A program made the translations under genes and the position numbers. The notes beneath the pieces were generated by a model. That model saw nothing but the letters and a program-made list of their open reading frames with translations, did not search any database and was not told the origin of the DNA. Source: a virus. From it: a stretch of DNA of 64,000 bases. The stretch's first letter is position 1, and the number at the start of each line of letters is the position of its first letter. Below are positions 8,568 to 31,355 of this stretch, one piece after another. The stretch is from IMG/VR virus record IMGVR_UViG_3300028840_001395, positions 1 to 64,000 of that record. One strand, written 5' to 3'.

Positions 8568-9269
8568 CTACGCGGTCAGGACGTAGCCGTGGGAGGCCTT
8601 CTTCTCCTTGGCCTCCTCTTCCTTCTCTTCCTGCATGGACTTGGCGGCCTCCTCCTCGGAGTCGTCGGCGGCCTTCTTCTTGCCGCCTTCCTTCTCGTCG
8701 CCGTCGTCCTTGTCCTTGGCCTCTTCCTTCTTCTTCTCGATGTTCTTCAGGAACTCGGGAGGAAGATCCTTCTTGGCCTGGCGAACGACGGTCGCGGCGA
8801 GGTTGAGCGCCTTCTCGACCTGGGCTGCGGCCTCCTTGGGGAGGTCACCCTCACCGATGGCGGCAGCGAGGCCACCGAGGGCAGCCTGGACGCCGGGGCG
8901 CGGGGCCTGGGGATCGGTCGTGATGCGGTCGGGGCCGATCTCGCCGCCCTGCTGCTTCTCGCGCAGCTCGCGGTTCTCCTGCTGCGAGAACTCGCCCTTC
9001 ATGTAGGCCTCATCCGGCTCGTCCTCCAAGGGACCGGCCTTCTCACGCCCGATGTCGTCGGGGTCGAAGCCCTGCTCCTTGACGACATCATCGCCGGTCA
9101 GTGCGACCTTCTCCAGATGATCGGAGAGCATGTCACACCGCAGCGAGAAATCGTGAGCGATCCGCTTCTCGACCCCGAGGGTCTGGAAGTCCACCTCGAA
9201 CAGGTTGGCGAGCCGATCCAGGTCCGCTGTCACGGCCTGTGCGCCCTTCTTGGTCAGCTTCTGGGTCAT
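8568..9269 (-). CDS. Hypothetical charged helical protein in the head cluster
   Basis: 233 aa, mostly helical and highly charged. The N-terminal ~60 residues (TADLDRLANLFEVDFQTLGV, IAHDFSLRCDMLSDHLEKVA) could be a folded helical bundle. A Gln/Arg/Pro linker follows, then an Ala-rich helix. The final 70 residues are Lys/Glu repeats resembling the C-terminal third of the EF-hand scaffold-like protein (both contain EKEGGKKKA). That shared segment suggests relatedness or a common partner in the prohead. The start ATG 9269 overlaps the giant protein's stop as ATGA; an earlier in-frame start would overlap more and lacks a better ribosome site. Confidence 0.7.
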   Translation of the reverse strand: MTQKLTKKGAQAVTADLDRLANLFEVDFQTLGVEKRIAHDFSLRCDMLSDHLEKVALTGDDVVKEQGFDPDDIGREKAGPLEDEPDEAYMKGEFSQQENRELREKQQGGEIGPDRITTDPQAPRPGVQAALGGLAAAIGEGDLPKEAAAQVEKALNLAATVVRQAKKDLPPEFLKNIEKKKEEAKDKDDGDEKEGGKKKAADDSEEEAAKSMQEEKEEEAKEKKASHGYVLTA

Positions 9270-12200
9270 CGTCTGGTTCCTCCTCCGAGTTCCATCCGTG
9301 GAAGCTCTGCTTGGGCACACACTTGCCCTTCGCTTATAAGGTTCCACGTATAGAAAGAAGATTGAAAAACTTTGGGCGAAGATGCGAAACTTTGAGCCTC
9401 TTTGCCCTGCGACTTGTACTTCTTGTCGAGATTCCCGATGTCCTGTTCCTCGACCGTATCTCGAATTTGTGCCCCCGTCAGAGAGTCCGGAGCAGGTTCA
9501 CCTATGATCTCACGGGCAATATCCTGGGCAATCTCGACCTGCTGGACACGAGCCTTGTTCGAGACTTCGTTGCACTTATTGATCTTTTCCGGGTCACCCT
9601 CGGCATCTGCCAGGCACTTCATCAGCTCCTTCTGGATCTGGGCGAACCGCTTATCGTTCCGCAGCGCCCCCTGGGCCGACTTGACCTTTTCGTCAACCTC
9701 ATCCTGGTCGTCGGTGCCATTCTCCCCCTTCCGGGCCGTCTCGGTCAGGAAAGCGTGGATCGTGGTCATCCCGTCCAAGTGGAGGTCTTTCAGCATATCG
9801 GTCAGAACCTTGGCGGACTGCTTGTCCTCGTCCTCATCCGAGGAAGCCTTCTCCTTGATCACCTTGATCATGTCCTTGTAGGGGCCGTTTTCACCCCCTA
9901 CCAAGGAGTACAGCTCATCGTCGGACACCTCTGACATCACCCCCTGTACAAGTTCCCGGCCAGCCGGGCTGTGGAACTCATCCGTGGACATCCCGACGAG
10001 CTTCATCGCCTCGCCCTTCTTGTGAAGGGCCTTGACCAGGGCCTTCATCTCATCGGCGGGTTCCTCCCGGAGGGGGGATATCTTCTCGTCGTTGACCAGG
10101 GCGGCCATCGCCAGGCCATTGGCGATGTTCTGTAGCTCCGCGAACTTGTTCTCATCATCCGTATCTTCGAGCAGCTTCTCCATCTGGGCGATGGCAGCCC
10201 CTCGAAGTTCGGGGGTCATCTTGGAGTACTCCTGGAACGCCTGCTCGGTACGCTGGCGGAGAGCATCCGCGTCCTTGGGCTGGTCGTTGACCTTGGTGCC
10301 TCCAACCAGGGTGGGGTTGGAAACAACCTTCCTGGCCAGCGTCTTGGCAGCGAGGGCCTTGGCGCTGTCCCGGAGGTTCATCCCCTGGCCGAAAGTGTCC
10401 TTCTTCAGCGCCTTGGTGGCCTCTGCGATGGTCTTGTCGGAGAGAGCGTCCCCAGAGAACACGCCCGTCTTGAGCTTCTCAAGCTCATCGGCGTAGGCCA
10501 TGAGGATGGCCCGCTTGTCCTCGTCGCTCTCGACACCCTTGAGTTCCGCCGCGAAGTTGGTATCCCCGACCTGGCGGGCCACGTTGTCGATCTTGTCGAT
10601 GTCCGCCTGGAGCTTCTTCTTCTCGGCCTCGGCCTTCCGCTGCTCAGCCTCTTCCTCAAGGCGCTGCGCCTTCTGGGCGAGGGTTTCTTCCTCAACCTCG
10701 GTCTTCTCATCGGGTGTCAGAGGCTCTCCCTTGGCCTTCTCGGCATCAGAGAGAGCCTTGGACTTCTCAGCCAGGCTGAGACTGACTTCCTCATCCCCCT
10801 TGCCCTTTTCGGCATTCCTCTCATCTGCATCGTCAGGATCGAGCTTGCCCGCAGCCATCGCAGCGGCATTCGCCTCATTCTTGGCGTGGCTATACTCGCC
10901 ATCGGGGAGTCGGAGCCCCCACTCGCCGTTCTCCTTCTGCCAGTAGTCGCCGGGCTTCTTATCCTTGCTGTCCTCGGGAACCTTCCCGGCCAGCCGGTCG
11001 AGCCAGCGCATGGCAACCCGCTTGTAGTTGAGGGAGAGATCCTCGTCTGTGTCCGCCGTGCCGCCCTCGGTGTCCTCATCCCCCATGTCCACCCGCTTCT
11101 TCTTCAGATCCTTGCGGGGTGGCTTGAACTTCGGAGCGGGCTTGACGAGATCCTCGACAGCCTCATCTTCCTTCTCGGCGTGGGTCTTGGTGGCGCGGCG
11201 CGTCATGTAGGTGTGGCCCGGACCCTTGCCCGTCTCCACGAAGCCTCGCTGCTTGAGCATCCTCACGGCATGGGGATTCACGGCATCGAGGCAGAACTTG
11301 ATGTCTGGGAACGGATCGGTCAGGTCATCGTAGTTGCTGATGGCGATGTCCATCAGCTTGCTGCCCAACGCCTTGCGCTGCCAGGCGGGGTCCACCACGA
11401 TGTCGAACTCGTAGCACTCCCGGTCACCAGAATCCGACGAGTCGAACAGAGCTGCCACAAGCTGTCCGTCAACCTCGTATCCGGCTACCCAGTCCTGGTG
11501 AGACAGGACACGGATGCCTACCCGCTGTGCGAGATCCCACGGGTCGGAGCCACGAGGGATGCGCCAGACGAGCTTCGGGGATCCTGCGGTGAGGATGTCC
11601 TCGAACTCCTGGCGGTAGCGGTCGATGATCTCGATGACCTCTGCGAAGCCACCCCCTGCAGCCTGCTTGTCCAGCTTGGTCTTGACCTGGCCCGTCGCCA
11701 GGAAGGTGTCTTCGAGGCCCGGAACGAGATACTGGCTCTTGAGGGTCGAAGGCTCGTGGCCGACCTCCTTGGCGGTCTCTTCCAGAGCCTTCTTGAACTC
11801 CTCCTTGAACTTCTTCTCGCGTTCCTTCTTGTCGTCCGGGGCTGGGTTGCCCTTGTTCCGGATGGCCTTGAGCTTGTTCTGCATCACCCGGTTGGCGTGC
11901 AGCCCCCGGATGTCCTTGGCCGTGATATCCATCGGCTTGAGGTAGTCGTTGACCGTGGTGGAATCGACCTTCACGTCGTCCACCTCGAACACCGGATCGG
12001 TGCCGGACTTGTCCTTGACGGCCTCCCGCAAGACCCGGACGATATCCGGGTCACGGGTCTCCTTCTTCTGGCTCACCCCGGACTTGCCGACGTACTTGAT
12101 CGTGGCCTTGTCCTTACCCACCGTGACGTGCTTGGCCTGCCAGCCGGTGACACCGAAGTGACCTTCCTTGGCCGAGTCGGGGTTGCCCACGCGCTCGTAG

Positions 12201-15200
12201 GTGTCATTGATGAGACCCACAGCCAACGCCGTGAGACGGGTCTTGAGGTCGTCAGAGGACAGATCCTTCTTGACCTTCTTCTGGAGGTCACCGAGCTTCC
12301 CACGGAGCTTCTCGACCCGCTTGGCCTTCTCCCGGTTCCGATGCTGAACCTGGCCTTCCGAATACTCGTAGACTGTGGTGGTGCCCTTGCCGTCCGCCTT
12401 GGGCACTTCCTTCTTCTTCTGGTACTTGGCGGCTACTCGCTCCGCCGGAGTCGCGTTCGGGTGAAGCTCCCGCCACCGCTCGTAGGGAGTCACATTGTCG
12501 CAGTCCGTGGACTCCTCACCGTAGGGGGACTCGATCTCGATGTCCCCGACGCACTCATCGGTCGTCTCCAGAACCTCGGCCCAGACGTACTCGGGCTCGC
12601 CGGTCATCGGCCCGAACACGGCACGCTCACCTTCCTCGAAGGCTTCGCCGTCAGCGGCCATGCGGGAGGCGAAGCGGTCAGCCACGTTCTCGACCAGCGG
12701 GGCGTCGCTGATGAGGAGAGGCACCGAATCCTCGGGGATGACCCAAGAGCCGATCTCCTTGCCATCCTCATCATCGAGTTTCAACTCGGTGTACTTGACG
12801 TTAGCTGCAGCCCGCTTCTTGCGAGGTCTCTTACGGGGTTTCTTGCGGGGCTTCGGCTTGGGCTTGTCCTCGTCGCCTCCGCTTCCCCAGATGCGCTCGA
12901 AGTCCTCCAGATGCTCTTCGGGCAGCTTCTTCATCACGGCCAGCGCAGAGGCATCGCAGAAGTGCTCCTGGGGATGGGTCGATGAGTAGGGCGTCGGGTA
13001 GTTCTTGTTCGCCCGTGCTGACCGGAGCAGCACCTTGCGGATCTCATGAATGGGGATGGGGAGCACCCTGTCCTGGTTCGGAACCTGGAACCAGTAGTTT
13101 TGGTCGTCCATCTTCTCCACGAAGAACGGCCCCTTGATGCGGCGCATCCTGATGGGAAGCTCATCACCCACACCCGGCATCTCGATCTCGGGGGTCTTCT
13201 GACCCACCCGGATGTGGTGCATCTCCCACTCACGCTGGGCCTTCTTGTCCCCGAACTTCTGCCACCACCGATGCGACAATTCGTGGATGATGTTGTGAAC
13301 CACATCCATGTTGAACCGGGCGAAAGGCCGGATATACATGTCGTCCCGCTTGCCGTTGTACCAGGCCATTGTCTTGGCTTGCTGTAGCTGCGGGACGATG
13401 AACACGTCGCCGTAGAGGGTCTTCTTCAGAGTCGCCGGAACCTTGGCTGCCCGGATGAGCTTCGCGGCCTTGTTGATCGTCTTCTTGACGTTCTCCAGCT
13501 TCTTGCCCGTCAACCCCATCGTGTTGTGAACCATGAACGGGCCGAGCTTGAACTTCTCCTCCGTCCCCTCCACCTTGTCGCGCCAGTGCTGGGTCGCGTT
13601 GAGGAAGTCGATGTGCCGCTGGGTCTTCTCCATCCACGGCCCGAACTTGATCGGCATCCGGCGGGCGGACATGAAGTGCCGGGCCGCCAATTCCAGACCC
13701 TTGTGCTTCTTCGCTGGGACGTGCTTCAGGTCGAGCACGCCTTGGGCCACATTCCGGCCATGAACGACGAGCCAACCCCAGGGATTCTTGAGTTGCCTCT
13801 TGATATGGCGATTCTGGAGGGCCTCGGGAGGCACCTGGCGAAGAACGTCTTTCAGGGCCTTCCAGAGTCCCATCAACTCCTGATAGGAATTGGCCAGGTC
13901 TGCGGGGGTTGTGAGCGTCGCCTGCTTCTGGTATCGGAGGGCTACCCGCTCGGCAGATGCCTGCTTCTCCTCGGGCCACGGCTCGGGAGCCGGGCGGATC
14001 TTGAACAGCTTGAGTTCCTTGTTCTGCTTCCGGCCCTTGGGGTAGGGCTCGACCGTGACCACCACATCGCCTTTCGAGTCGGTCTTGAAGCCCTTGATCT
14101 TGCCCTTCTTGTTCTTGTACTTGCCGTAGAGAACCGAGTCTCCGATGTTCAGCTTGAATGTGGCTGCGATCTTCCCACCCTGCACCTCCGAGGGCACCTG
14201 GTAGTAGACGATATCGTCCTCATCGCGCACGTTCAGCCGGTGCGGGGTCTTCTTGAGCATCGAGACCCCCTTCTCGAAGGGAATCATCTTGGCGTTCTTC
14301 AGCACCACATCCCTGTTCCAGACCACCTCCTCGGGATACCCATACTTGGGCACCGTGGGAGTCTGGAACGTGATGGCAACGAGCTTCTCGCCCATCTCGG
14401 GCTTGATGTGCGTGGTCTGCACTCTGGGAACGAAGTGCCCCCAGCGGGACGACACGGCGGTCACGTTGTCCGTCCCGAACTTCTTGTATGGGGGCCTCAT
14501 CTTGAGCTTGCCGTCAGCCAGAATCAGGCGTGCCCGGCGGTTGGTCGTGAAGTGGACGAACGCATCGTCCTTCACGTCCATCAGGTAGTGGGTGTGCTGG
14601 TCTTGAATCGGCGTTCCCAGCCACACCATCCACTCGGGATGAGCCTCGGGAGCCCCTCGGAGGGCCATCTTCGTTCGCCCCCACTCACTGGCATCATCGA
14701 ACATCACAATGAACTCAGGCTGACCGCGAAGTGCCCCCGTGCGCCCCCCGCCCAGCGCCTGACGCACCTTCTTCTCCAGACGACGTGGATTGGCAGCCAG
14801 CACAGGGTCAATCAGGAGAGCCTGGCGGGCGGCCTCGGTGATCTTCTGGAACTCCTTGCCCGTCAGTCCGAACTCCGAAGCGAGTGCCCTCATGTCCATG
14901 ACCTTGCCCGGCTGGGCCAGGACAGCAACGAAGGCATCGGACTCATCGGCGCTCATCTGGACGGTGATCTCGCGGACACGCTGCCGCTGCCGGGCATCGA
15001 GGAACCCCAAACGCTTCCCGGTGGGCATACCCAAGTCCATCAGGTCGAACAAGGTCGCCAGGTCAGCCTTCTTCTCGGCCCAGTTGCCCAGTGCCGAGGC
15101 GAAGCCCTTGTCCTTGCGGGCGATGTCCTTGACCACATCGAGGAGACCCAGGCGCTTCATCTCCAGCAGGGCCTTCTTGCCCACTCCGCCCTCATAGAAC

Positions 15201-16693
15201 GTGTCGATGATCATGTTCGACAGGTGGGACGGCGGGACGTTCTGGAGCTTCTGCCTGTTCCGCTTGATGGAGGCTTCCACGTCCGGGGCGATCTTCAGGC
15301 CATACTTGAGCAAGAACTTGATGGCCCTCACCATCCGGCTCGGGTCGTCCGCGAACACCTTGTCAGGGTTCTGGGGGCACCGGGCAACGCCCTCCTGCAA
15401 GTCCCGCAGGCCACACCCCGTCAGGTCGATGATCTCGGCCTTGTCCGGCCCCTTGGCCAGGTCGAGCAGCCTCCACATCAGCGTGTTGAACGTGAACTCC
15501 CGACGAATCACGTCCTCCTCGATGGTCGAGGGCTCGACCATGTGGGGCTTGTAGCCCTTCCCGGCCTGACCGCCGTAGCTCTCCTTGCGGGCGTTGGCGA
15601 TCTCGATGACCTCACCGTCGAGGTTGGCCCCTCCGACCTCCCAGTCGCCCTTGATGGTCAGGATGGCCACGCCGTAGTTGTTCGTGGTCAGATTGGTCGG
15701 GACAGGAATCGCCCTCTGGAGCTTCTTGGCGAACCACTCCGAATCACGACCAGCCGCGATGGAGTCAATCACCACGTCGATGTCCTTGATAGGCTGGTTG
15801 ATCACGAAGTTGCGGACGGCTCCACCCACGACGTAGGTGTCCTTGGCGACCCCGAGCTTCCGGGCCACGTCCGAGAGGAACTTCATCAGCGCCCGGCTGG
15901 CCTGGTCGGTCATCTCGGACAGGTGTGTCGAAGCCACTCGATTGGCAGTGGCACTGCCAAAAGGAATGGTCTGGAGCTTCGGGAGCCCCCAGACCTCGAT
16001 GTTATCGAACTCCCAGTCGCCTTGGGGCACATCGCCCTTGTAGACCGCCGTGAGGCCGTCCAGGTAGGCCAGAGTGACGTGGGGGCGGTAGATGAGCGGG
16101 AACTTGTCGTCCACCCGAAGGCCTGCGTCAATGAGCTTGTCGCGGAGCTTCCAGCGAATCCCGGCCATGTCGTGACTGTAGCGGATGCCCATCAGGGCGA
16201 CCCTGCGGCCCTTGTCGGGATGGACGAAGTATTCGGGGCCTTGGAGATGGGCTCGAACGGGCTCCCGGATCTCCGCGAAAGCCTCCCGCGAAGCGTTGAG
16301 GAACGCTTCTTCCTGGTCTGCCGGGACGTTCCCGACGTAGAGGAATGTGGCGTGGGGCTTGGACTTGTCCTCGTCGCCCAGCGGGGGGAACTGGCCTGCA
16401 AGCTCCTTCGGGACAGGGATGAAGAATCCGACCCCGGTGCGGTCGCCGGTCTTCTTGCCGTCCTGGGAGTCGGCCTTCTTCTTCGGCTTTGCCGGATCCT
16501 CGCCGTACTTCTTGCCGACCTGGCCGCCCTCGACCTCGCGGTGCTTGACGATATCGCCCTCGTGCTCCTTGCTCCAGGACTTCCAGTGCTTGTCGCAGAA
16601 CCAGGCCCGGCCCCGGCCCTCGGCCCAGACACACTCATGGGTCGGGGGCTTGCTGCATTCCATGCACTTCGACATGGAATGGCGGCCAGCCAT
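9266..16693 (-). CDS. Giant 2475-aa polyvalent protein: zinc finger, 2H phosphoesterase, CCA-adding-like nucleotidyltransferase, ART-like, zincin, topoisomerase IB, GNAT
   Basis: One uninterrupted frame. A Cys/His finger (residues ~10-40) leads. A 2H phosphoesterase follows (~88-250) with HAT at 114-116 and HVT at 205-207. A class II nucleotidyltransferase/poly(A)-polymerase head and RNA-binding region (~265-640) shows VVGGAVRN, DID (304-306), IEEDVIRREFTFNTL and DDPSRMVRAIKFLLKYG. A possible ADP-ribosyltransferase-like region (~655-815: VHFTTNRRARLIL, TDNVTAVSSRWG) is uncertain. A zincin (HELSH 1137-1141) precedes topoisomerase IB (~1430-1665), whose five catalytic residues are visible: Arg1501, Lys1537, Arg1596, His1646, Tyr1655. 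A GNAT domain (~1690-1825) and a ~600-aa charged helical tail complete it. Short RVAxRY tags mark several boundaries. Lying between portal and protease, it may be packaged and injected. ATG 16693 has GGAG spacing and abuts the upstream stop. Confidence 0.88.
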   Translation of the reverse strand: MAGRHSMSKCMECSKPPTHECVWAEGRGRAWFCDKHWKSWSKEHEGDIVKHREVEGGQVGKKYGEDPAKPKKKADSQDGKKTGDRTGVGFFIPVPKELAGQFPPLGDEDKSKPHATFLYVGNVPADQEEAFLNASREAFAEIREPVRAHLQGPEYFVHPDKGRRVALMGIRYSHDMAGIRWKLRDKLIDAGLRVDDKFPLIYRPHVTLAYLDGLTAVYKGDVPQGDWEFDNIEVWGLPKLQTIPFGSATANRVASTHLSEMTDQASRALMKFLSDVARKLGVAKDTYVVGGAVRNFVINQPIKDIDVVIDSIAAGRDSEWFAKKLQRAIPVPTNLTTNNYGVAILTIKGDWEVGGANLDGEVIEIANARKESYGGQAGKGYKPHMVEPSTIEEDVIRREFTFNTLMWRLLDLAKGPDKAEIIDLTGCGLRDLQEGVARCPQNPDKVFADDPSRMVRAIKFLLKYGLKIAPDVEASIKRNRQKLQNVPPSHLSNMIIDTFYEGGVGKKALLEMKRLGLLDVVKDIARKDKGFASALGNWAEKKADLATLFDLMDLGMPTGKRLGFLDARQRQRVREITVQMSADESDAFVAVLAQPGKVMDMRALASEFGLTGKEFQKITEAARQALLIDPVLAANPRRLEKKVRQALGGGRTGALRGQPEFIVMFDDASEWGRTKMALRGAPEAHPEWMVWLGTPIQDQHTHYLMDVKDDAFVHFTTNRRARLILADGKLKMRPPYKKFGTDNVTAVSSRWGHFVPRVQTTHIKPEMGEKLVAITFQTPTVPKYGYPEEVVWNRDVVLKNAKMIPFEKGVSMLKKTPHRLNVRDEDDIVYYQVPSEVQGGKIAATFKLNIGDSVLYGKYKNKKGKIKGFKTDSKGDVVVTVEPYPKGRKQNKELKLFKIRPAPEPWPEEKQASAERVALRYQKQATLTTPADLANSYQELMGLWKALKDVLRQVPPEALQNRHIKRQLKNPWGWLVVHGRNVAQGVLDLKHVPAKKHKGLELAARHFMSARRMPIKFGPWMEKTQRHIDFLNATQHWRDKVEGTEEKFKLGPFMVHNTMGLTGKKLENVKKTINKAAKLIRAAKVPATLKKTLYGDVFIVPQLQQAKTMAWYNGKRDDMYIRPFARFNMDVVHNIIHELSHRWWQKFGDKKAQREWEMHHIRVGQKTPEIEMPGVGDELPIRMRRIKGPFFVEKMDDQNYWFQVPNQDRVLPIPIHEIRKVLLRSARANKNYPTPYSSTHPQEHFCDASALAVMKKLPEEHLEDFERIWGSGGDEDKPKPKPRKKPRKRPRKKRAAANVKYTELKLDDEDGKEIGSWVIPEDSVPLLISDAPLVENVADRFASRMAADGEAFEEGERAVFGPMTGEPEYVWAEVLETTDECVGDIEIESPYGEESTDCDNVTPYERWRELHPNATPAERVAAKYQKKKEVPKADGKGTTTVYEYSEGQVQHRNREKAKRVEKLRGKLGDLQKKVKKDLSSDDLKTRLTALAVGLINDTYERVGNPDSAKEGHFGVTGWQAKHVTVGKDKATIKYVGKSGVSQKKETRDPDIVRVLREAVKDKSGTDPVFEVDDVKVDSTTVNDYLKPMDITAKDIRGLHANRVMQNKLKAIRNKGNPAPDDKKEREKKFKEEFKKALEETAKEVGHEPSTLKSQYLVPGLEDTFLATGQVKTKLDKQAAGGGFAEVIEIIDRYRQEFEDILTAGSPKLVWRIPRGSDPWDLAQRVGIRVLSHQDWVAGYEVDGQLVAALFDSSDSGDRECYEFDIVVDPAWQRKALGSKLMDIAISNYDDLTDPFPDIKFCLDAVNPHAVRMLKQRGFVETGKGPGHTYMTRRATKTHAEKEDEAVEDLVKPAPKFKPPRKDLKKKRVDMGDEDTEGGTADTDEDLSLNYKRVAMRWLDRLAGKVPEDSKDKKPGDYWQKENGEWGLRLPDGEYSHAKNEANAAAMAAGKLDPDDADERNAEKGKGDEEVSLSLAEKSKALSDAEKAKGEPLTPDEKTEVEEETLAQKAQRLEEEAEQRKAEAEKKKLQADIDKIDNVARQVGDTNFAAELKGVESDEDKRAILMAYADELEKLKTGVFSGDALSDKTIAEATKALKKDTFGQGMNLRDSAKALAAKTLARKVVSNPTLVGGTKVNDQPKDADALRQRTEQAFQEYSKMTPELRGAAIAQMEKLLEDTDDENKFAELQNIANGLAMAALVNDEKISPLREEPADEMKALVKALHKKGEAMKLVGMSTDEFHSPAGRELVQGVMSEVSDDELYSLVGGENGPYKDMIKVIKEKASSDEDEDKQSAKVLTDMLKDLHLDGMTTIHAFLTETARKGENGTDDQDEVDEKVKSAQGALRNDKRFAQIQKELMKCLADAEGDPEKINKCNEVSNKARVQQVEIAQDIAREIIGEPAPDSLTGAQIRDTVEEQDIGNLDKKYKSQGKEAQSFASSPKVFQSSFYTWNLISEGQVCAQAELPRMELGGGTRR

Positions 16694-16694
16694 C

Positions 16695-17666
16695 CTAGCT
16701 CCAGGAAACGACTTCAAGGGGCATCCCTTCCCAGACTCGACCCTCATAGAGCCTCATCAGCTTGTCCAGGAACCACTCGTGGGATGCCGGATCCCACGGG
16801 GCATTCCCATCCGCACCGGGCCAATCCGGATTCTGGACAGCGAACTGACCCTCCCGTGCCCCGCCTCGCCCCAGCGTTCGGGGGAGCATGTAGATGCTGT
16901 ACCCCTCGTCCTGGGCGATATCCTTCAGATATCGGTATAGATACGGAGCTTCCGGGCTGTCCCTGAAAGCTCCCTCGATGACGATAGGGACTCCGGGAGG
17001 CACGTCATCCTGCACGTTGATGGTGATGGAACCCTCTGGAACACGGGCCTTGATATACTTGGAGGCCACACGCCTCGATGTCCGCATCTGGAGGATCTTC
17101 CCCGCGTCCTCCTGGGCAAAGTGCCACATGGACTGGACGGTGGAGGCAAACGCCGAGTATAGCTCCTCGGCTGACCTCTCCTGCCCATGACAGGTGACAT
17201 CCGGGTCGTCACAGTGCCGGGCGTTCCGGTAGTCCAGATACATCTGGGCCAGCTCGTCCCGCTTCGCTTTCGGAAGGGCCATGAGGGACTTCATCGGGAC
17301 GCCCAGGATCTTGACCGCCTCATCCACCCACTCGTTCTTGGGCCAGCACACGGGGTTCTTGTCCTCGACACACCTGAAAACGAACTCGAAGACCGCCCGA
17401 AGCTCCTCGGGTTGAGCGGGCCGACCCCAGACGTAGCGGTAGGACTGATCGATGTCCGCCAGGACATCTCCCATCATGTCGGCAGGGCCATCCCCGTTGT
17501 ATAGCTCGGTGCCGTCGTATCTGCCGGGCGGCTCGACATGAGCACCAGGTTCGCCCGGCTGGATAGTCCACCAGCCCGCTGTCCGCTCCAAGTGCGCGAG
17601 AACCTTACGCATCTGGCTTCGGGCTGCGACTTTCTGGGACAGGATCTGGCGCACGCGGGCCTCCAT
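16695..17666 (-). CDS. Hypothetical protein between portal and polyvalent genes, with RVA-type basic tags
   Basis: 323 aa, no family recognised. The N-terminus is a basic amphipathic helix (RVRQILSQKVAARSQMRKVL). A helical domain with several Trp and Cys follows (YRYVWGRPAQPEELRAVFEF, HCDDPDVTCHGQERSAEELY). A second tag RRVASKYIKARVP lies near residue 195, and then a mixed alpha/beta domain (SITINVQDDVPPGVPIVIEG, YLYRYLKDIAQDEGYSIYML). The C-terminus abuts the giant polyvalent protein. The tag shared with that protein suggests a common location, perhaps inside the head; this is inference. Confidence 0.7.
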   Translation of the reverse strand: MEARVRQILSQKVAARSQMRKVLAHLERTAGWWTIQPGEPGAHVEPPGRYDGTELYNGDGPADMMGDVLADIDQSYRYVWGRPAQPEELRAVFEFVFRCVEDKNPVCWPKNEWVDEAVKILGVPMKSLMALPKAKRDELAQMYLDYRNARHCDDPDVTCHGQERSAEELYSAFASTVQSMWHFAQEDAGKILQMRTSRRVASKYIKARVPEGSITINVQDDVPPGVPIVIEGAFRDSPEAPYLYRYLKDIAQDEGYSIYMLPRTLGRGGAREGQFAVQNPDWPGADGNAPWDPASHEWFLDKLMRLYEGRVWEGMPLEVVSWS

Positions 17667-17703
17667 ACGGAGCTAACCTTCTGTATGGAGGGAGAATATA
17701 GGA

Positions 17704-19401
17704 CTAGAAACGACCGCCCTCTTCCTCCGGCTTCTCGTACTTGAGCCCGAGGTTCTCGGCAATCTTCTCCGCAGCGTCCGAATTCTCGGCCAGAGCGTCG
17801 CCCGTCCGGCTGTAGATGCCACGGAGAGCCTCGTTGAACGTCGCGTCCTTGAGGGTGAACAGGTCGCGCTTGAGCTTCTCGTCCACCGTGTCCGGGTCGA
17901 GGTTGAGCAGGTCGAGGATGGTGTCGATGTCCAGCGACCCCTTCTGGTAGAGGTTGAACAGGGCATCGAACGTATCGCTGTTGTCCCGCAGAGCCAGGCG
18001 AGTGAACGAGAGCCGGGGGACGATGACTTCCAGATTCCCGTCCTCGTCCTCCTCCACGAAGCCCATTCGGCGGCACATCGGCTTGAAGAAGCCGTCCTCC
18101 ACCAGGTCTTGGAACAGCTCCCGCATGAGCATGTAGCGGGTGTTGATGACTTCCAGGTGAATCCGGTCGCCCGAGTAGGACGACTCGCCCGACAGAAGGC
18201 TCTCGGTCACGCCCAGGCCCGCATACATCTGCCGGTCGGTGAAGTCCCAGACCCACGACCAGTCGGGAAGCCGCTGGTCTGCTCCCATCTCTTCCCAGTT
18301 GACCTGGAAGTTGGTGATGATGGAGTAATCCGGGTCTTGCAGAGCGAGATCGACCTGCTCCCGAAGCTCCTCGGTCTGTTCCTCGTTCATGTCCTCGGCG
18401 TAGACGAGCCGGTAGGGCGTCATGTGCCGGGAAGCGATGGACGTGAGGCTCTGACGCACCTTGTCACGGAATACCAGCGTCCTCATGCACCGCTGGAGGA
18501 TGCTCTGACCCCGATCCTCGTAGTCCGCCCGCTTCCGCTGGAGGCAGTAGAGGTAGGAGCCCGCGTCAGGGTCCATGTTCAGCGGGATGTTCTCCCCCGC
18601 CTTGATGGACGCCACAACGCCCTCGGGCATCGAGTTGACGATACGGATGGCCTGAGCATCACCCTGCTCGGCCTTCTCGATGATGTTCTTCGTCTTGCTG
18701 TCGGGGATGAGTTCGACCAGCTTCTCATCGGTGAACGGGAAGCTCTCCATGTGGATCTGCTCGGGAGGGAGCACACGGATGGCCGTCCAGCCCTTGTAGT
18801 TCTTCTTCAGCCAGGCAACCTCGCGCTCATCGGCATCCTCGTAGACCTGCCACTTCTCGACGGTCTCGCCCTCGGCGGTGATCTCTCGGATGCACTCCTC
18901 ACGGATCTCGCGGGGCATCTCCGGCGACGTGTCCTCGCAGAAGATGTTGGCCTCGCCCAGCAGGTTGTAGTCGTGGCTGATGCTGATGAGCCGGTGCAGC
19001 AACTTGATGTTCTTCGCCCACCGCTCACAGAACCGCAGGGCCTTCTTCCCTAGCTCCTTGTCCTTGCACTTGGGCGGGGCCAGCCGGAGCTTCGACAGCG
19101 GCAACTCAGTGTGAAGATCGACCGCCTGACCGACGAAGGGCTCGTACTTGTAGAAGAATCGGTAGAAGTTCCGCTGCTCATCGATGCTCTGGGGAAGCTC
19201 AAGGAAGTCCGTGGACAGCTCGGGCGAATACCAGTTGCCGCCCATTCCCAAGACGGTCTGGCCACCGGCACCCCAGACCGAAGCGTTCTTCATCTTCATG
19301 GCGGAGGTGACAATCTTGCTGGGCTTGCCAACCGTGACGTTGCCCCTGACGGGCTTCATCTCTGCCACCTTGATGGTGTGCTCTGGGTCGTTCTTCGTCA
19401 T
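17704..19401 (-). CDS. Portal protein
   Basis: 565 aa, a usual portal length. The dodecameric portal sits at the capsid vertex and is the DNA channel and motor dock. Supporting features include the N-terminal MKMKNASVWGAGGQTVLGMG with NFYRFFYKYEPFVGQAVDLH, typical of portal clip/wing starts. The core has LISISHDYNLLGEANIFCED and WTAIRVLPPEQIHMESFPF. The long stem/crown helices are RSQ-type (ILQRCMRTLVFRDKVRQSL), followed by MYAGLGVTESLLSGESSYSG and the INTRYMLMRELFQDLVEDGF helix. It lies downstream of TerL with two tiny genes between, the standard order. Start overlaps the upstream gene as ATGA. Confidence 0.88.
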   Translation of the reverse strand: MTKNDPEHTIKVAEMKPVRGNVTVGKPSKIVTSAMKMKNASVWGAGGQTVLGMGGNWYSPELSTDFLELPQSIDEQRNFYRFFYKYEPFVGQAVDLHTELPLSKLRLAPPKCKDKELGKKALRFCERWAKNIKLLHRLISISHDYNLLGEANIFCEDTSPEMPREIREECIREITAEGETVEKWQVYEDADEREVAWLKKNYKGWTAIRVLPPEQIHMESFPFTDEKLVELIPDSKTKNIIEKAEQGDAQAIRIVNSMPEGVVASIKAGENIPLNMDPDAGSYLYCLQRKRADYEDRGQSILQRCMRTLVFRDKVRQSLTSIASRHMTPYRLVYAEDMNEEQTEELREQVDLALQDPDYSIITNFQVNWEEMGADQRLPDWSWVWDFTDRQMYAGLGVTESLLSGESSYSGDRIHLEVINTRYMLMRELFQDLVEDGFFKPMCRRMGFVEEDEDGNLEVIVPRLSFTRLALRDNSDTFDALFNLYQKGSLDIDTILDLLNLDPDTVDEKLKRDLFTLKDATFNEALRGIYSRTGDALAENSDAAEKIAENLGLKYEKPEEEGGRF

Positions 19402-19736: not shown

Positions 19737-19990
19737 TTCGGCCCCCACTTGTGCTTCTTGGTCATCTGGCCCTTCTCGTAGGCGGCCTTGAGCACCTTCT
19801 TGAGCTTCCGGATATCGGTGGGGGAGCCCTTGAAAACCCGCTCCCACGACCCTCCGGCTCGCACAAACACGTCGGAGATCAAGCTGAACTCCTCCGGCAC
19901 GTATTCTACCTTACCCTCCAAGGTCGAAACTGTCAGCTTCTTGATGAACCGATGGTCGGCCCGAACAGGGCTACGGGGGTCAATGTCCAT
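19733..19990 (-). CDS. Small hypothetical protein after the terminase gene
   Basis: 85 aa: an acidic-basic N-terminus, a short beta region (KKLTVSTLEGKVEYVP), and a basic helix ending KKVLKAAYEKGQMTKKHKW. Start and stop overlap both neighbours by 1-4 bases (TGATG and GTGA), so it is translated with TerL and the portal set. No family recognised. Confidence 0.6.
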   Translation of the reverse strand: MDIDPRSPVRADHRFIKKLTVSTLEGKVEYVPEEFSLISDVFVRAGGSWERVFKGSPTDIRKLKKVLKAAYEKGQMTKKHKWGPK

Positions 19991-21864: not shown

Positions 21865-21871
21865 GAGGCAC

Positions 21872-22552: not shown

Positions 22553-22562
22553 GACTTCCTCC

Positions 22563-23108: not shown

Positions 23109-23117
23109 GACCTACTC

Positions 23118-25667
23118 CTACAGCTCGGTGCCCCCGAACAGGATGTCGCTCAGCACCTCCGCAGAGGCATCTTCTTCCAACTCCACTTCGCCGTCGAGCT
23201 GACTCTGGAGAGCGAATTCGCTCGGGTCGAACAGAGATGCCGTGACCTCATGGTCTGGGGCCTCGGACAGCTTGATGGAACGCTCCTGATACGCCTTCAC
23301 GTCCGCCACGGGCGGGGCGTCCACCAGCTTCTTGTTGTACTTCGCGCAGTAGCCGTCCGCGTTCTTCTGGGTACAGGAAGCGCAACGGTCCATCGCCATG
23401 ACGAACTTGAGACCGTTCGCCCGGTGCTTCAACGCACCCTTCTTGCACCCCTTCACCCCAGACGGGGAGGCATACGCCTCGGCGTCCACGTAGAGGAACC
23501 CGGCCAGACCCTCGTGAATCTCGCGGGCCTCCTTGATGACGGGAGCGGCAGCTTTGAGCAACGGCCCAGAGAACCGGGCCTTGAGCATCTGGTCAAGCTC
23601 CACGCCAGCGGTGCCTTCGCTCATCAGGCGACGCGACCAGTTCAGGAGACCCTGGATCTCGGCCACCTTCTGTCCGGACTTCTTCGCCAGAGCGGCGATG
23701 CGGTCAGTCCGGTCGTCCAAGACCTTCGGAGCAGGACGGCTCTGACCGGCTGCCTCGAAGTGCTGACCCTCGTAGTCACCCTTCTGGGCAAGCTGCCGGT
23801 CGTGCATGAGCTGTTCGGCAGCCGCATACATCTGCTCCGGAGTCTCACACGCCTTGCGGATCTTCTCGGCCTCGATCTTCTGGATCTTGCCCGCCTTGAC
23901 GAGCTTGTTCAGATGCCCCAGCGCCGCATCCCGAAGCTCCTTGGCCCGGTTATCCACGATGTTGCCTCGGGCGTTGCGGTCGAGGTTGCCCTCTGGCTTC
24001 GCCACGGCACCGGCACCGTCGTATTCGCCAGCCTCCTCGGTGGCGAGCTTCTCCTGGCGGCGCTGCTCCCCGATCTTCACCGCTGCTCCGGCCAGGCGCA
24101 TCAGTTCTGCCGGAGGCTTGTTGATCGCCAGAATTCGACCCACCTCTTCGCTGGTGAGCAGACCGGCGTTGATGGCCCGATTGAGGTACTTCTGGAGCTT
24201 GCCTGCCTCGCGCTTGGTGACCTCGGCCTCCCGCTCATCGAGCGAAGCCCCTGCCGATTCACGCTCCGCCTGGGCCTGGGCGACACCCTCACCCGTCCCG
24301 GCGTAGGATGCCTGCTTGTTCTGCCGGGCCTGCATGAGCCGGGCAGCCGCCTTGAGCATCACCGCAGGAGTGCCCCCAGACTGACGGATCTCCTGGGCCT
24401 CCGCCTGTGTGAGCAGATCCTCCTTGACCCACTTGGCCAGCTTGACCAAAGCAGCCTTGCGCCGCTTGTCAATGGCCTTGTCCTCGGAGCCCTGAACGGT
24501 CGTCGGAGGTGTCGCTGCCTGCCCCAGAGCCTCGGTGGCCTCCTTCTCGGTAGCCACGACGGGCTTGACGACCGGCTTCGGAGTCGGGTCGTGCTGCTTC
24601 TCTTCGGGGCCACGGAGGAAGGCTTCCCGCAGGATGGTCTTGGGGTCACCCTCACTGGCGACCTTGTAGCCAGCCAGACCCAGCCACTCACGGTAGTAGC
24701 TCAGAGCACTGTCCCACGGAACCTCGGAGACAGCGGCCATCCCCAGCTTCTTGCCCACCGTATCATCGTCGGTGATGACGTAGTGGGCTGTCCGTGCGAT
24801 CTTCTTCAGCTCCTTCGACCACTTGCCGTTCTTGAGCCCAGGGAAGGCATTGGCCCGGACGAATACCTTGCCCGCCAGACCATGCTCCCGTTCGATGATC
24901 TCCACCGCCTTGACAGTGCGACGGGCATCGTGACCAAGCTGCCTGACCAGGCCCCGCTTGATGTCCAGCATGTCAGCACCGTAGTGCGACTGACGCATGG
25001 CCCACAGAATCGCGTCCTTGACCTCTTCGGCGGTCTTGGACGCAGGCTGCGGGAGACCAGACTCCGGCCCCTCCTTGATGGACTCGTTGTACTGGGCGAC
25101 TTCGCGGTCAGTGACGTTCGGGATGATGTTGATGCCGTCCGTGCGACGGTCAACGCCCCACGCATCCTCAAGCTCGGGCGAACTGTCCAGCGGAGGCCGG
25201 TCGGGGAGAAGCTCCTTCGGGAGCCGGTCGGGATCTTGCTTCTGGGTCGGGTCGAGCCACTGAAGGTCGGCCAGAGAAGCCGCCTGCTTCTCCTGGGGGG
25301 TCATGGGGAGGGCACCCTCATCTTCGGAGAGCATCGAACCCAGGAGCGTCCCATCATGGTCGGTCGGCGTGGGCATCGCTCCATCCTCGAACACGCCGTC
25401 GAGGTAGAGGCCCTCTCCACCTTCGGAGGAGGACTCCATGAAGAAGCTGTCGTCGTCCTCGCTGCCCCCTTCCACGATGCCGTCAGGCAGCCCCGCGAGG
25501 CCCTTGGCCTCGGGCAGTCGAGCGCCCTGCTCGACCCCCTCGTTGGGCGGGGTGTAGAAGTCGTAGCCGTCGAGTCCGAAGTTCGAGCCATCGGTGAAGG
25601 TGAACTCGTCGGCAGGGAGCCCGGACTCGCCCAGGTGGTCAGTCCAATCGCTATTCTTCTTGGTCAC
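23118..25667 (-). CDS. 849-aa protein with three helical repeats and a C-terminal Cys-rich domain (polyvalent/virion-associated candidate)
   Basis: Starts at GTG 25667, overlapping the upstream stop as GTGA; the longer open frame to 25796 is a run-on. Residues ~1-200 are acidic and low-complexity. A domain near 240-360 (KDAILWAMRQSHYGADMLDI, VFVRANAFPGLKNGKWSKEL) is unassigned. Three ~45-aa helical repeats follow, sharing Leu-x-Lys, GLLT-x-x-EA-x-x-I and a Pro-x-x-x-[ML]-x-x-A-A end, at about 445-495, 540-590 and 620-670. The C-terminal ~110 residues have a Cys cluster (GCKKG, DRCASCTQKNADGYCAKYNK) like a metal-binding knuckle I associate with large phage polyvalent proteins. Possible internal head protein. 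Confidence 0.7.
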   Translation of the reverse strand: MTKKNSDWTDHLGESGLPADEFTFTDGSNFGLDGYDFYTPPNEGVEQGARLPEAKGLAGLPDGIVEGGSEDDDSFFMESSSEGGEGLYLDGVFEDGAMPTPTDHDGTLLGSMLSEDEGALPMTPQEKQAASLADLQWLDPTQKQDPDRLPKELLPDRPPLDSSPELEDAWGVDRRTDGINIIPNVTDREVAQYNESIKEGPESGLPQPASKTAEEVKDAILWAMRQSHYGADMLDIKRGLVRQLGHDARRTVKAVEIIEREHGLAGKVFVRANAFPGLKNGKWSKELKKIARTAHYVITDDDTVGKKLGMAAVSEVPWDSALSYYREWLGLAGYKVASEGDPKTILREAFLRGPEEKQHDPTPKPVVKPVVATEKEATEALGQAATPPTTVQGSEDKAIDKRRKAALVKLAKWVKEDLLTQAEAQEIRQSGGTPAVMLKAAARLMQARQNKQASYAGTGEGVAQAQAERESAGASLDEREAEVTKREAGKLQKYLNRAINAGLLTSEEVGRILAINKPPAELMRLAGAAVKIGEQRRQEKLATEEAGEYDGAGAVAKPEGNLDRNARGNIVDNRAKELRDAALGHLNKLVKAGKIQKIEAEKIRKACETPEQMYAAAEQLMHDRQLAQKGDYEGQHFEAAGQSRPAPKVLDDRTDRIAALAKKSGQKVAEIQGLLNWSRRLMSEGTAGVELDQMLKARFSGPLLKAAAPVIKEAREIHEGLAGFLYVDAEAYASPSGVKGCKKGALKHRANGLKFVMAMDRCASCTQKNADGYCAKYNKKLVDAPPVADVKAYQERSIKLSEAPDHEVTASLFDPSEFALQSQLDGEVELEEDASAEVLSDILFGGTEL

Positions 25668-26296
25668 GATGCGCTCCTCTGGAGATACCGATGTGCCACC
25701 CGTCTTGCTAGAATACCCCGGACGCCAGAAGCCATCTTGCTCCGAGCCACCTTGCCTGGAGCCTCGTCCATCTCCGCTTCTTCTTCCTCGGCCCATTCCT
25801 CGGGATTCTCCCGAATCTCGTCCACATCCTCCATGATCTCAACGACTTCCTCGCGCTCACGAGGGCTCTGCTCCTCGACAGCGGGGTTCCAGTGCGGGGC
25901 GTTGATCTCGTCGTAGAGGGTGTCGGTGAAGGCGGACAATGCCTCGGAAACATTCATCATCTGGCGGCGCATGTCCGAGATCTTCTGAATGTATCCCTTG
26001 CCGCCGAGACTTCCATCGGGGCTGACACGGGCGGACTTGATCTTGGTGAACTGGGTATAGGCCGACTGGGCGTGTCCCAGTGCCGAGAGAGCAGCGCGAA
26101 GAGTCTTCGCAAGAGGCTTGAGGTTTTTGGGCTGGAACTCGAAATCCCCAACGATTTCGCGCTCCGTTGGGCCAGGAGAGCCCCAGCCCCACTCGTTCTT
26201 GTCCCCACCACGATCCTTGATGAAGCGGACTTCACCAGCCGTTTTGACGCGCCGCGCCGTGTGTCGGGCTGCTACTTTCTGCGCTGGGGTGGCCAT
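25664..26296 (-). CDS. Hypothetical protein with RVA-type tags at both ends
   Basis: 210 aa from ATG 26296, which has GGAGG six bases upstream. A GTG four codons earlier is less likely. The N-terminus (MATPAQKVAARHTARRVKTA) and C-terminus (RGILARRVAHRYLQRSAS) both carry the basic VAxRxxxR tag of this gene cluster. The middle has long helices (LKPLAKTLRAALSALGHAQS, MRRQMMNVSEALSAFTDTLY) and a Glu-rich segment. Function unknown. Paired end tags suggest virion targeting or protease processing, which is inference. Confidence 0.7.
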   Translation of the reverse strand: MATPAQKVAARHTARRVKTAGEVRFIKDRGGDKNEWGWGSPGPTEREIVGDFEFQPKNLKPLAKTLRAALSALGHAQSAYTQFTKIKSARVSPDGSLGGKGYIQKISDMRRQMMNVSEALSAFTDTLYDEINAPHWNPAVEEQSPREREEVVEIMEDVDEIRENPEEWAEEEEAEMDEAPGKVARSKMASGVRGILARRVAHRYLQRSAS

Positions 26297-26351
26297 TCGT
26301 GCCTCCACACTTCTCCTACAGACTCCGACCTATAGAGTGAATATCAGAAAC

Positions 26352-27206
26352 CTACCCGAGCACCGGAATGACCTCATCTGGCTGATCTACTCCCATTTTC
26401 TGCCAGTGGACAACGATATTGCCTCGTGCCCAGGTGACGAACTTCTTCACCGCCAGGTAGATGATCCTGCCGATAAAGGTGACTGGGAGGGCTCCATAAC
26501 CCAGCCCCGCCATTGCAGCCAGGAGCCCGATACCGGACTCGGGGAGGGTGGAGAGTAGCTCCCCGAAACCCATCCCTCCGGTGAATCCCTGGATGAGCCC
26601 TTCCATGTCCCAGGACAGCTCGGCCACGTTGAACCAGATCCAGATGAAGATGGCTGCCACGATGGGCCGTCGCATGGTCTTCAGGACGCGAGACTTCTCC
26701 ACGAAGTCGTCCAGGGGCTTGACGAAGCTCTTGGCTCCGGCGAGCGCCTTGGCCACCCACGGCGCGTTGCCGGTGATGCGATTCATGAGGTCGGTGAGGC
26801 CCGGCATCTTGTTCTTCGGCACGAAGTAGAGCGAGAGTGGGAACGTCTCGGCCATCTTACGGAAGACCTTGATGATGGCCTGCTTGCCCTTCTTCGCCCA
26901 CTCCTTGATCTTCTTCGGGATGTCCGCCAGACCCTTGATGCCGAGGAACTGCTTGATGCGCTCCCACACCTTCGGCACCTTCTTGAACAGCTCGACCAGC
27001 TTCTTCAGCTTGCGGACGAGGCCCCCGAAGGCCACGCGATTCTGGTGGGTCGGCAGGTAGAAGGCTTCCCCGAAGGCTTCCAGCACCTCGGGGGTCAGGT
27101 CATGGAGGGCGGCTGTCCGGCGCTTGAATGTCTTGGAGGCGCAGACCTCGCGGACAGCGAGACGCACCTGGTAGCGGTCAGCGATCTGCTGGGCGAGAGC
27201 GGCCAT
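26352..27206 (-). CDS. Putative membrane-interacting protein with two or three hydrophobic segments
   Basis: 284 aa. The N-terminus (ALAQQIADRYQVRLAVREVC) is a tag-like helix. A very basic middle (GGLVRKLKKLVELFKKVPKV, IKEWAKKGKQAIIKVFRKM) precedes hydrophobic spans: RRPIVAAIFIWIWFNVAEL, ESGIGLLAAMAGLGYGALPV and VTFIGRIIYLAVKKFV. This layout, basic amphipathic helices plus membrane spans, fits a virion protein that inserts in a membrane during DNA entry. A lysis role is another possibility. Stop and start abut the neighbouring gene by one base. Confidence 0.65.
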   Translation of the reverse strand: MAALAQQIADRYQVRLAVREVCASKTFKRRTAALHDLTPEVLEAFGEAFYLPTHQNRVAFGGLVRKLKKLVELFKKVPKVWERIKQFLGIKGLADIPKKIKEWAKKGKQAIIKVFRKMAETFPLSLYFVPKNKMPGLTDLMNRITGNAPWVAKALAGAKSFVKPLDDFVEKSRVLKTMRRPIVAAIFIWIWFNVAELSWDMEGLIQGFTGGMGFGELLSTLPESGIGLLAAMAGLGYGALPVTFIGRIIYLAVKKFVTWARGNIVVHWQKMGVDQPDEVIPVLG

Positions 27207-27207
27207 C

Positions 27208-27555
27208 CTACCGGGTCGAGTCCGACGCTTCCCTGACTGTCGGCCCCCACTGGGCGGACAGGTCAGAGGCGAACATCATGCTCGGGAGCTTCATGCCCAG
27301 GCTGTTGGCAGCCTTGAAGATGTTGTTCCGCAGGAGAGCCACATCCCAGTTGGCTCCTCTGGAGGAGATGTCCTGTAGCCGAGACAGGGCCTCCTGTGCG
27401 CCACGGGACATATCAAGCTCATCTGTGATCCTGTCCCACACGTCCCGCATGAGGTCAGCCGACTGGGCATCCTCCTTACGGAGACGGCTATGGAGTTTCA
27501 CGAACCCCCTGTAGTCCACAAGGCTCCGAAGAATATCGGTCCCGCTCATAGACAT
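27208..27555 (-). CDS. Small hypothetical protein
   Basis: 115 aa, mostly helical (LRSLVDYRGFVKLHSRLRKE, SADLMRDVWDRITDELDMSR), ending with SDLSAQWGPTVREASDS. The phrase QWGPTVREA resembles EQWGPTIKEA at the N-terminus of the 70-aa protein at 29408-29620, so the two may share a partner-binding segment. No family recognised. Confidence 0.6.
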   Translation of the reverse strand: MSMSGTDILRSLVDYRGFVKLHSRLRKEDAQSADLMRDVWDRITDELDMSRGAQEALSRLQDISSRGANWDVALLRNNIFKAANSLGMKLPSMMFASDLSAQWGPTVREASDSTR

Positions 27556-27565
27556 CTCTGACTCC

Positions 27566-28129: not shown

Positions 28130-28141
28130 CTTGCGCTCCCG

Positions 28142-29398: not shown

Positions 29399-29407
29399 CG
29401 ACTACCT

Positions 29408-29620
29408 CTACATCACCTTCTTGACGGCCTCTTCGAGCTTGAACAGAGCCTTGCTCACCGCAACGCTCTCCCGATGAATGGCCCGAGGGTCGGAGACACG
29501 CCGCTTGATCTGGGCGAGCAGATCCGACATGCCATAGGTCATATCGAGAACGGTGTCCCCAGGGTAGGAGAACGTCCCCGCCTCCTTGATCGTCGGCCCC
29601 CACTGCTCTTTCAAGCCCAT
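29408..29620 (-). CDS. Small hypothetical protein
   Basis: 70 aa, helical C-terminus (SDLLAQIKRRVSDPRAI, ALFKLEEAVKKVM). Its N-terminal EQWGPTIKEA matches a C-terminal segment of the 115-aa protein at 27208-27555. It lies in the tail-protein operon with 9-bp gaps either side. No family recognised. Confidence 0.55.
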   Translation of the reverse strand: MGLKEQWGPTIKEAGTFSYPGDTVLDMTYGMSDLLAQIKRRVSDPRAIHRESVAVSKALFKLEEAVKKVM

Positions 29621-29629
29621 CTTGCCCTC

Positions 29630-30310: not shown

Positions 30311-30312
30311 CG

Positions 30313-31044
30313 TCAGACTGCCTTCACCGCCGCCTTGAGCGCCTTGTCCAGCTTGCCCTTGAGATCACGCAGATCCTTGAACACGAAGGTCGTCTCGAAG
30401 GGTGTGACCATCTGATTGGGCAGGTAACGACCATCTGGATCGATGGCCGAGAACACGTACATGTTGTTCATGCCACGCTTCTTCACCCACGGACTCGTGC
30501 TGTCCGGGTCATAGAAGAAAGCCCCGATGCGGACCCCAAAGCCCTCATCGACATAGAGTTCCCGCATGGCCTCATCGAACTCCTCGGCCAGAGAGTAGTC
30601 GATCTCCTCAAGGTCGTGATAGCTGATGTCATTGGGCGCGAGACCCAGTTCCGGGTGCCTCTTCGCAAACCACTTCGCGGTCTCATCGTGGATCTTGTCG
30701 TCGGCACCTGACCGCATGGACTCAGCCTTGGAGTTGCTGAAGCCATACCCCGTGCTGATAGTGTATTCTAGTGGAACCCAGCACTCAGCACCCCAACCCC
30801 CATCAGAGCCAGAACCGAACTTGGAGTTCCGCTGACCCTTGACGACAGGGAGCAAGGTCGCGTCAGACTCCCAACGGGAGCAGAGATCGTCAGCGGCATC
30901 TTCCACAGCCCGGCGGACGATCTTGTCCATCTCGGGGTCATCGAGGGCCTGGCGGGCAGCGAACTTCCGCAGCAGCGGCACCAGATGCCGTCGAAGTTCG
31001 GGCTTCTCATGGGCCAGCTTGACCAGTTCTCCACGAAGACCCAT
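30313..31044 (-). CDS. Hypothetical protein with the recurrent N-terminal LRxELxxLAH tag
   Basis: 243 aa from ATG 31044 (TGATG overlap with the upstream stop). The first 30 residues, GLRGELVKLAHEKPELRRHL then VPLLRKFA, are an amphipathic helix that I recall as an N-terminal extension on many unrelated proteins of large phages, probably a localisation tag. The body (VKGQRNSKFGSGSDGGWGAE, YVDEGFGVRIGAFFYDPDST, NNMYVFSAIDPDGRYLPNQM) is a mixed domain of unknown family. The C-terminal helix is Lys-rich. Confidence 0.65.
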   Translation of the reverse strand: MGLRGELVKLAHEKPELRRHLVPLLRKFAARQALDDPEMDKIVRRAVEDAADDLCSRWESDATLLPVVKGQRNSKFGSGSDGGWGAECWVPLEYTISTGYGFSNSKAESMRSGADDKIHDETAKWFAKRHPELGLAPNDISYHDLEEIDYSLAEEFDEAMRELYVDEGFGVRIGAFFYDPDSTSPWVKKRGMNNMYVFSAIDPDGRYLPNQMVTPFETTFVFKDLRDLKGKLDKALKAAVKAV

Positions 31045-31355
31045 CACCAGACTCCCGTTGTCTCGAAGCCCCGCTTCTCGAACCAGGCTGCCAGCTTCAC
31101 CAGCGCCTCCCGATTCCGAGACCAGACCTCGACAGAATCGAAGGTATCCTTGACCCCCAGGTCAGGGATTGAGTCCACCTCGGCCATCGCCACCTTGCCG
31201 TCGCGGAACGAGCGCAGCAGGTTGGGGAGATTCTTGATCTCTCGGATGCCGTAGAGGACTTGGAAGCGATACTCGGGCGTGGAGAACTTCCCGACCCAGC
31301 GCCGGGCCACCCGCTTCGCCATCACGACCCGCTTCTTGGACTCTTGTTCTGCCAT
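31044..31355 (-). CDS. Small hypothetical protein with N-terminal RVA-type tag
   Basis: 103 aa from ATG 31355, which has GGAGAGG at the right distance; a TTG four codons earlier is not needed. The N-terminus (SKKRVVMAKRVARRWVGKFS) carries the basic KRVARRW tag. The rest (YRFQVLYGIREIKNLPNLLR, DSVEVWSRNREALVKLAAWF) is a small alpha/beta unit. Unknown function. It is the first gene of the structural-side operon after the sigma-like regulator. Confidence 0.6.
   Translation of the reverse strand: MAEQESKKRVVMAKRVARRWVGKFSTPEYRFQVLYGIREIKNLPNLLRSFRDGKVAMAEVDSIPDLGVKDTFDSVEVWSRNREALVKLAAWFEKRGFETTGVW

Follow-up and report, generated by a model that had tools for sequence, protein, structure and literature searches.

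A short basic helical tag on otherwise unrelated proteins of a jumbo phage, a candidate packaging label for accessory proteins

The first 64 kb of IMG/VR virus record IMGVR_UViG_3300028840_001395, a 435,804-bp jumbo-phage record with 62% GC, encode a series of proteins that carry the same short linear motif, about S-A-x-R-V-A-[AS]-[RK]-[YWHF]-[LMIV], called the RVA tag here. In this 64,000-nt stretch (the window) and in related genomes, the tag is enriched far over chance, favors protein ends and the joints between domains, is gained and lost as a module on conserved cores, is found among the head genes, and is associated with cargo-type enzyme domains. We propose, with a probability of about 0.58, that the RVA tag is a position-independent packaging label on accessory proteins, working like a capsid-targeting sequence (CTS).

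The remainder of the record was taken in 20-kb stretches, with genes that span the joins being split. Genes were called with a simple hexamer-based caller of our own, which yielded 521 proteins for the whole record; start sites are approximate because of this caller. Relatives were found via the terminase (41 loci), and seven genomes were sampled in bulk (G000, G001, G007, G008, G011, G013, and G014). Among the called proteins of the record, 21 matches to the search pattern [RK]VA.[RK][YWFH] were counted, compared to a mean of 1.1 and a maximum of 5 in 300 per-protein shuffles, and 17 matches to the narrower pattern RVA.[RK][YW], compared to 0.26. The 41 relative loci contained 47 sites (1.64 in shuffles, maximum 4), and an excess over shuffles was present in every one of the seven genomes: G000 (21 sites, 1.2 in shuffles), G001 (14, 1.05), G013 (13, 0.24), G008 (12, 0.56), G011 (11, 0.79), and, where it was small, G007 (3, 0.41) and G014 (3, 0.42). 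A weight matrix (position-specific scoring matrix, PSSM) built from 99 distinct sites, orthologs included, disclosed 149 places at or above its working cut-off of 14, against 1.7 in shuffles. An unbiased search for terminal patterns re-found the tag in G001, G013, and G000. The motif was not found in the literature that we searched.

The V and A columns of the motif do not vary, because the pattern itself fixes them. Among the columns that were free to vary, position −2 was A in 51 of the 99 sites, position −3 was occupied by S, L, or M, position +3 was A or S in 56, and position +6 was L, M, V, or I in 72. The basic residue at position 0 is not essential, as orthologs of open reading frame (ORF) 31044-31355 carry S or A there (MAKSVANRW, MAKAVAARW), and RIA variants occur as well. 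In agreement with a first-pass annotation that described the tag as amphipathic and basic, the mean helical hydrophobic moment was 0.55, compared to 0.34 in shuffled sites, and the net charge averaged +2.3.

The location of the sites within their proteins is far from random. Twenty-five of the 99 are no more than 20 residues from the N-terminus (8.2 expected) and 28 no more than 20 residues from the C-terminus (8.6 expected), giving 53 terminal sites where 17 were expected, a number reached in none of 20,000 simulations; the others are internal. After C-terminal tags, 1 to 13 residues remain. Up to five tags occur per protein, and in the giant proteins of the window and its relatives they are placed between Pfam domains, with a single exception considered below. 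The placement at termini and domain borders that the first-pass annotation had described is borne out. AlphaFold models of two families, those of ORF 25664 and ORF 7950, showed the tags as helices reached through linkers with a low predicted local distance difference test (pLDDT) score; only this general picture is safe, because the mean pLDDT of the models was 70 and 66. A Foldseek search of the ORF 25664 model against the PDB returned no match at E 0.001.

All nine tags named in the first-pass annotation were located in the window, on the minus strand and in the expected frames. Four belong to a giant protein of 2493 aa (ORF 9266-16747, minus strand) with Pfam matches to 2'-5' RNA ligase, PolyA_pol/CCA nucleotidyltransferase, topoisomerase IB, and GNAT domains. 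RVASTH, followed by L (15923-15940, PSSM 15.7), follows the 2'-5' RNA ligase-like domain and precedes the PolyA_pol/CCA domain, while RVALRY (SAERVALRYQK; 13931-13948, 26.1) separates a region that we ourselves read as ART-like from an HExxH metallopeptidase-like region. RVAAKY (12422-12439, 23.7) is positioned directly ahead of the topoisomerase IB domain, where relatives have RVAARYQEKK and RVAARYKSKK at the equivalent place, and RVAMRW (LSLNYKRVAMRWL; 11003-11020, 21.7) follows the GNAT domain. A weak variant, NVADRF (12671-12688), scored 11.0, under the cut-off.

The remaining five are found in three smaller ORFs, likewise on the minus strand. ORF 16695-17666 has RVASKY at residue 199 (17055-17072, 22.2) and the N-terminal variant KVAARS at residue 12 (17616-17633, 11.6). 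ORF 25664-26296 is tagged at both ends, with KVAARH at the N-terminus (26261-26278; AlphaFold helix 4-14) and RVAHRY at the C-terminus (25685-25702; helix 195-209, behind a linker with pLDDT <50), and ORF 31044-31355 has an N-terminal RVARRW (31296-31313), retained as [RSA]VAxRW in its orthologs. Two of the nine sites, RVASTH and KVAARS, do not fit the strict pattern.

Other matches in the window, also on the minus strand, differ in quality. ORF 26352-27206 has a divergent N-terminal tag, QIADRY (27171-27188), whose counterparts in orthologs are RVADRYL (G013) and RVATRHL (G008). Two further tag-like sites had not been listed before: RVARAF (8208-8225) of ORF 7950-8549, in the linker that joins its SH3-like part to its zinc-ribbon-like part, where orthologs have RVASRY, and the internal RVAARW (62476-62493, PSSM 18.1) of ORF 61453-63585, a protein of 710 aa that matched no Pfam or PHROG family. 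The latter match may be due to chance. Two loose, low-scoring matches were left out of the tag count: KVAKDW, from the large terminase, and KVAMDF, which is a conserved piece of the ORF 8568 family.

Comparison of relatives revealed that the tag changes place, or is lost, on conserved protein cores. In the ORF 25664 family, core identity to the window protein is 47-67%, and the tag may be found at the N-terminus, at the C-terminus, at both ends, or not at all. Members of the ORF 7950 family carry it in the linker between the SH3-like domain and the zinc ribbon; four relatives are without the tag, and in two that have no zinc ribbon the tag forms the C-terminus. The HAD_SAK_1 RNA-repair domain, present in five of the seven genomes, is tagged in all five copies, at the N-terminus in G011 and at the C-terminus in the other four, with the G000 copy ending in ...VVATRVAARWLRRLG. 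A stand-alone topoisomerase IB has a C-terminal tag in genome G003 and none in four relatives.

To describe the carriers of the tag, 76 tagged proteins were scanned against Pfam and PHROG. Topoisomerase IB was the most frequent family (seven proteins), followed by HAD_SAK_1 and PolyA_pol/CCA (four each), 2'-5' RNA ligase and C39 peptidase (three each), and ART-PolyVal and UvrD helicase (two each); RNA ligase, InPase, WLM peptidase, DarB-like antirestriction protein, minor head protein, and virion structural protein were single cases. This diversity of families agrees with the earlier description of the tagged proteins as otherwise unrelated. For comparison, 79 proteins without the tag, matched in length and drawn from the same genomes, yielded methylases, DNA polymerase, ribonucleotide reductase, helicases, chaperonin, portal, head protease, and tail protein, and the cargo-type domains of the tagged set were absent from them. 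Core replication enzymes fell in this untagged set. A genome can have as many as about 20 tagged proteins, among them small single-domain proteins as well as giants, which in relatives contain InPase, RNA ligase, and ART-PolyVal domains. In one giant tagged protein, from G014 (L107:10845-19262), the CCA nucleotidyltransferase region is the site of an intein that includes a LAGLIDADG domain.

The gene neighborhood of the tag points to the head. On the minus strand of the window, the head operon has the portal gene at its upstream end (17704-19401), near the large terminase gene (19990-21864), and also contains the genes for the head maturation protease (6322-7950), a very acidic scaffold-like protein (4704-6335), and the major capsid protein (MCP; 2891-3766), the scaffold-like gene lying between those for the protease and MCP. 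At least one tagged protein was encoded between the portal gene and the protease, scaffold, and MCP genes in all seven genomes. Tagged genes were clustered, significantly in five of the seven genomes, and those of G000 adjoined each other 8 times compared to 1.0 expected. They also occur far from the head operon, spread over the genome, and the initial assignment of the tag to a structural cluster was too narrow. The scaffold-like protein contains an EF-hand calcium-binding motif and long acidic runs.

Several known systems resemble the RVA tag in part. The CTS of phage T4, found on Alt and the internal proteins, is a short peptide common to unrelated head proteins that directs accessory proteins, some of them injected, to the prohead core (PMC5694885). 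The RVA tag is likewise a short peptide shared by otherwise unrelated proteins, and it probably works in a like manner. However, the T4 sequence is N-terminal, 10-20 residues long, and removed by gp21, whereas the RVA tag is located at the N-terminus, at the C-terminus, or in linkers, in up to five copies per protein, and displays no sign of a terminal [ILVAS]xE cleavage site. Being position-independent, repeated within proteins, and not visibly a cleavage site, it was not filed as a T4-type CTS. In phage P1, a stretch of 30 residues at the N-terminus of DarB is enough to direct a reporter into the capsid (PMC9024508). The Dar cargo includes large antirestriction proteins, and one tagged protein matches a DarB-like PHROG, but the P1 signal was described for one protein and at its N-terminus, unlike the RVA tag, which can be at any position and on as many as about 20 proteins of a genome. 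The diverged paralogs gp53 and gp54 of SPN3US share identical N-terminal 15 residues that the authors liken to T4 CTSs (PMC5694885); in contrast to the RVA tag, SPN3US propeptides are mostly >100 residues long and cut after AxE or SxE, and the shared stretch is limited to the paralogs.

The giant tagged proteins resemble the polyvalent proteins of Iyer et al. (2017), which combine ART, GNAT, zincin-like peptidase, and nucleotidyltransferase domains and are predicted to be packaged and injected (PMC5512222). They draw several enzyme domains from the same repertoire, they are matched by Pfam ART-PolyVal, and they are encoded near the head genes of phages with a portal and terminase. The available part of that account names domains and describes no shared linker or terminal tag. 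Encapsulin cargo-loading peptides may offer a further parallel, as short terminal peptides on flexible linkers that load diverse enzymes into an HK97-fold shell, but their sequence differs from that of the RVA tag and encapsulins are not phage heads.

Taken as a packaging label, the tag would be a basic amphipathic helix, carried at the tip of flexible linkers, by which accessory proteins made together with the head are marked for uptake into the prohead. The V/A/Y/L face and the two basic residues could bind to some part of the prohead core. Candidate partners are the very acidic scaffold-like protein (4704-6335), which can only be guessed at as a partner of a basic tag, the product of ORF 8568-9347, the inner capsid, or the portal. 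Large multi-domain proteins of the polyvalent kind bear about one tag per module, probably because single enzymes that each had a tag were fused to form them. The predicted cargo includes RNA-repair enzymes, CCA nucleotidyltransferase, topoisomerase IB, ADP-ribosyltransferase, peptidases, and DarB-like proteins, which would reach the host cell together with the DNA and counter its defenses early on.

Several points weigh against this proposal. Packaging is what we infer, because no virion proteomics, nor isolate or binding data, were found for any tagged phage, and the receptor is a guess. Two tagged proteins are UvrD-family helicases, not obvious cargo (L070:15510-20000 and L021:7497-11060; near the C-terminus and with an intein in G001, an N-terminal variant in G000), and C39 peptidases and CCA enzymes, which would be expected as cargo, are untagged in some genomes. 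One match in a giant protein, at residue 830 of L138, is inside an ART domain and probably represents the domain's own VAxxYA-like motif. The 99 distinct sites are not 99 independent events because they include orthologs, and the matrix totals are not independent of the regular-expression counts because the matrix was trained on mostly the same sites. Tunturi_5, an isolated relative, was considered as a tagged phage, but its whole-record pattern count was not clearly higher than that of the reversed-pattern control (12 versus 5) and its first 50 kb had no tag scoring ≥14, which makes it unusable as a proteomics test; the Tunturi_5 paper contains no mass spectrometry.

The first-pass annotation had offered a capsid-targeting signal or a prohead-protease site as the function of the tag. 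The former is supported indirectly, by the terminal and linker placement, the mobility of the tags, the helix-plus-linker models, the head-operon position in 7/7 genomes, and the cargo-like enzymes. The latter, in which the head protease cleaves at the tag and releases domains inside the head, would suit the tags between Pfam domains of the giant proteins and the protease gene in the same operon. Nevertheless, cleavage appears improbable: all 96 orthologs of the MCP (13), scaffold (20), protease (24), and portal (39), including the window proteins, lack a tag (best score 7.9 versus the cut-off of 14), and a cut 1-13 residues from the C-terminus would free almost nothing. Moreover, the density of [ASLIV]xE motifs, the kind cleaved by T4 and SPN3US proteases (PMC5694885), is only 0.016 per residue near tags compared to 0.025 over the whole of the tagged proteins, and the site table of the tag has no E column. 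A terminal amphipathic helix on a linker would equally suit a docking motif for a partner outside the virion, recruiting late accessory enzymes to a phage-made assembly such as a replication focus, membrane, or chaperone. Such docking is favored chiefly by the presence of the tag on UvrD helicases, and the distance of some tagged genes from the head operon is compatible with it; but the untagged core replication enzymes and the constant position among head genes point to the virion instead, leaving this a possible but rather unlikely explanation. It is further weakened, and an import signal for a phage nucleus was rejected, by a search of five genomes at E 0.01 that returned no homolog of the 201phi2-1 shell protein gp105, although a distant homolog could escape a search by sequence.

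The charge of the tag, with two basic residues per helix, and the several tagged proteins that act on nucleic acid could also reflect a DNA-binding or compaction helix that keeps packaged or ejected proteins on phage DNA. We regard this as improbable too, since position 0 may be S, A, or Q (the last in VEQVAARH) while V, A, and the aromatic residue persist, and peptidases and other proteins with no link to nucleic acid are tagged as well. Hardly credible is the idea that the tag is a common type of helix in alanine- and arginine-rich proteins, spread by duplication of one family. R, A, and V are indeed frequent in proteins of a 62% GC genome and some matches are orthologs, but shuffles yield about one match, the tagged proteins are otherwise unrelated, a relative that uses AGR codons (G011) retains the tag, and no site was found in approximately 33,000 aa of 201phi2-1 and Tunturi_5 proteins.

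The search for terminal patterns also turned up other recurrent short modules in these genomes. One of ~25 aa, LRxx[LV]I[RK]LAHxxPxLR[PK]HLLPLL[KR], was detected in 26 otherwise unrelated proteins of five genomes (13 in G008, five in G013, four in G001, three in G000, and one in G007), near the N-terminus in 19; its sites include window positions 30316-31044, L099:3309-4025, several in L140 and L141, and 11 places in LR745208.1. An N-terminal module, RSASE[IV]IRxLExRIARLE, occurs in at least 13 G011 proteins (L112-L128), and xxQWGPTI[KR]EA in seven G000 proteins, at the N-terminus in five (window 27211-27549 and 29411-29620; G000 69110, 74570, 154247, 336254, and 417365). Only one protein combines one of these modules with the RVA tag, the LRxx...LLPLL module is not on RVA-tagged proteins, and the proteins concerned have few known domains. 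Separately, six G001 proteins of ~200-230 aa, perhaps paralogs, start with KAYWFS (297925, 309350, 310021, 332207, 333304, and 417464). It is conceivable, if rather doubtful, that the lineage runs a sorting code of several unrelated tags, for different cargo sets or for the same compartment via different receptors.

If the RVA tag is a packaging label, a short searchable peptide would list, from sequence, the packaged, host-acting proteins of this group of giant phages, most of which are now unannotated, and would provide a position-independent tag for loading enzymes into very large capsids. It would also suggest that huge multi-domain injected proteins grow by joining enzymes that are already tagged, and the proteins carried into the cell ahead of gene expression would become testable for jumbo phages.

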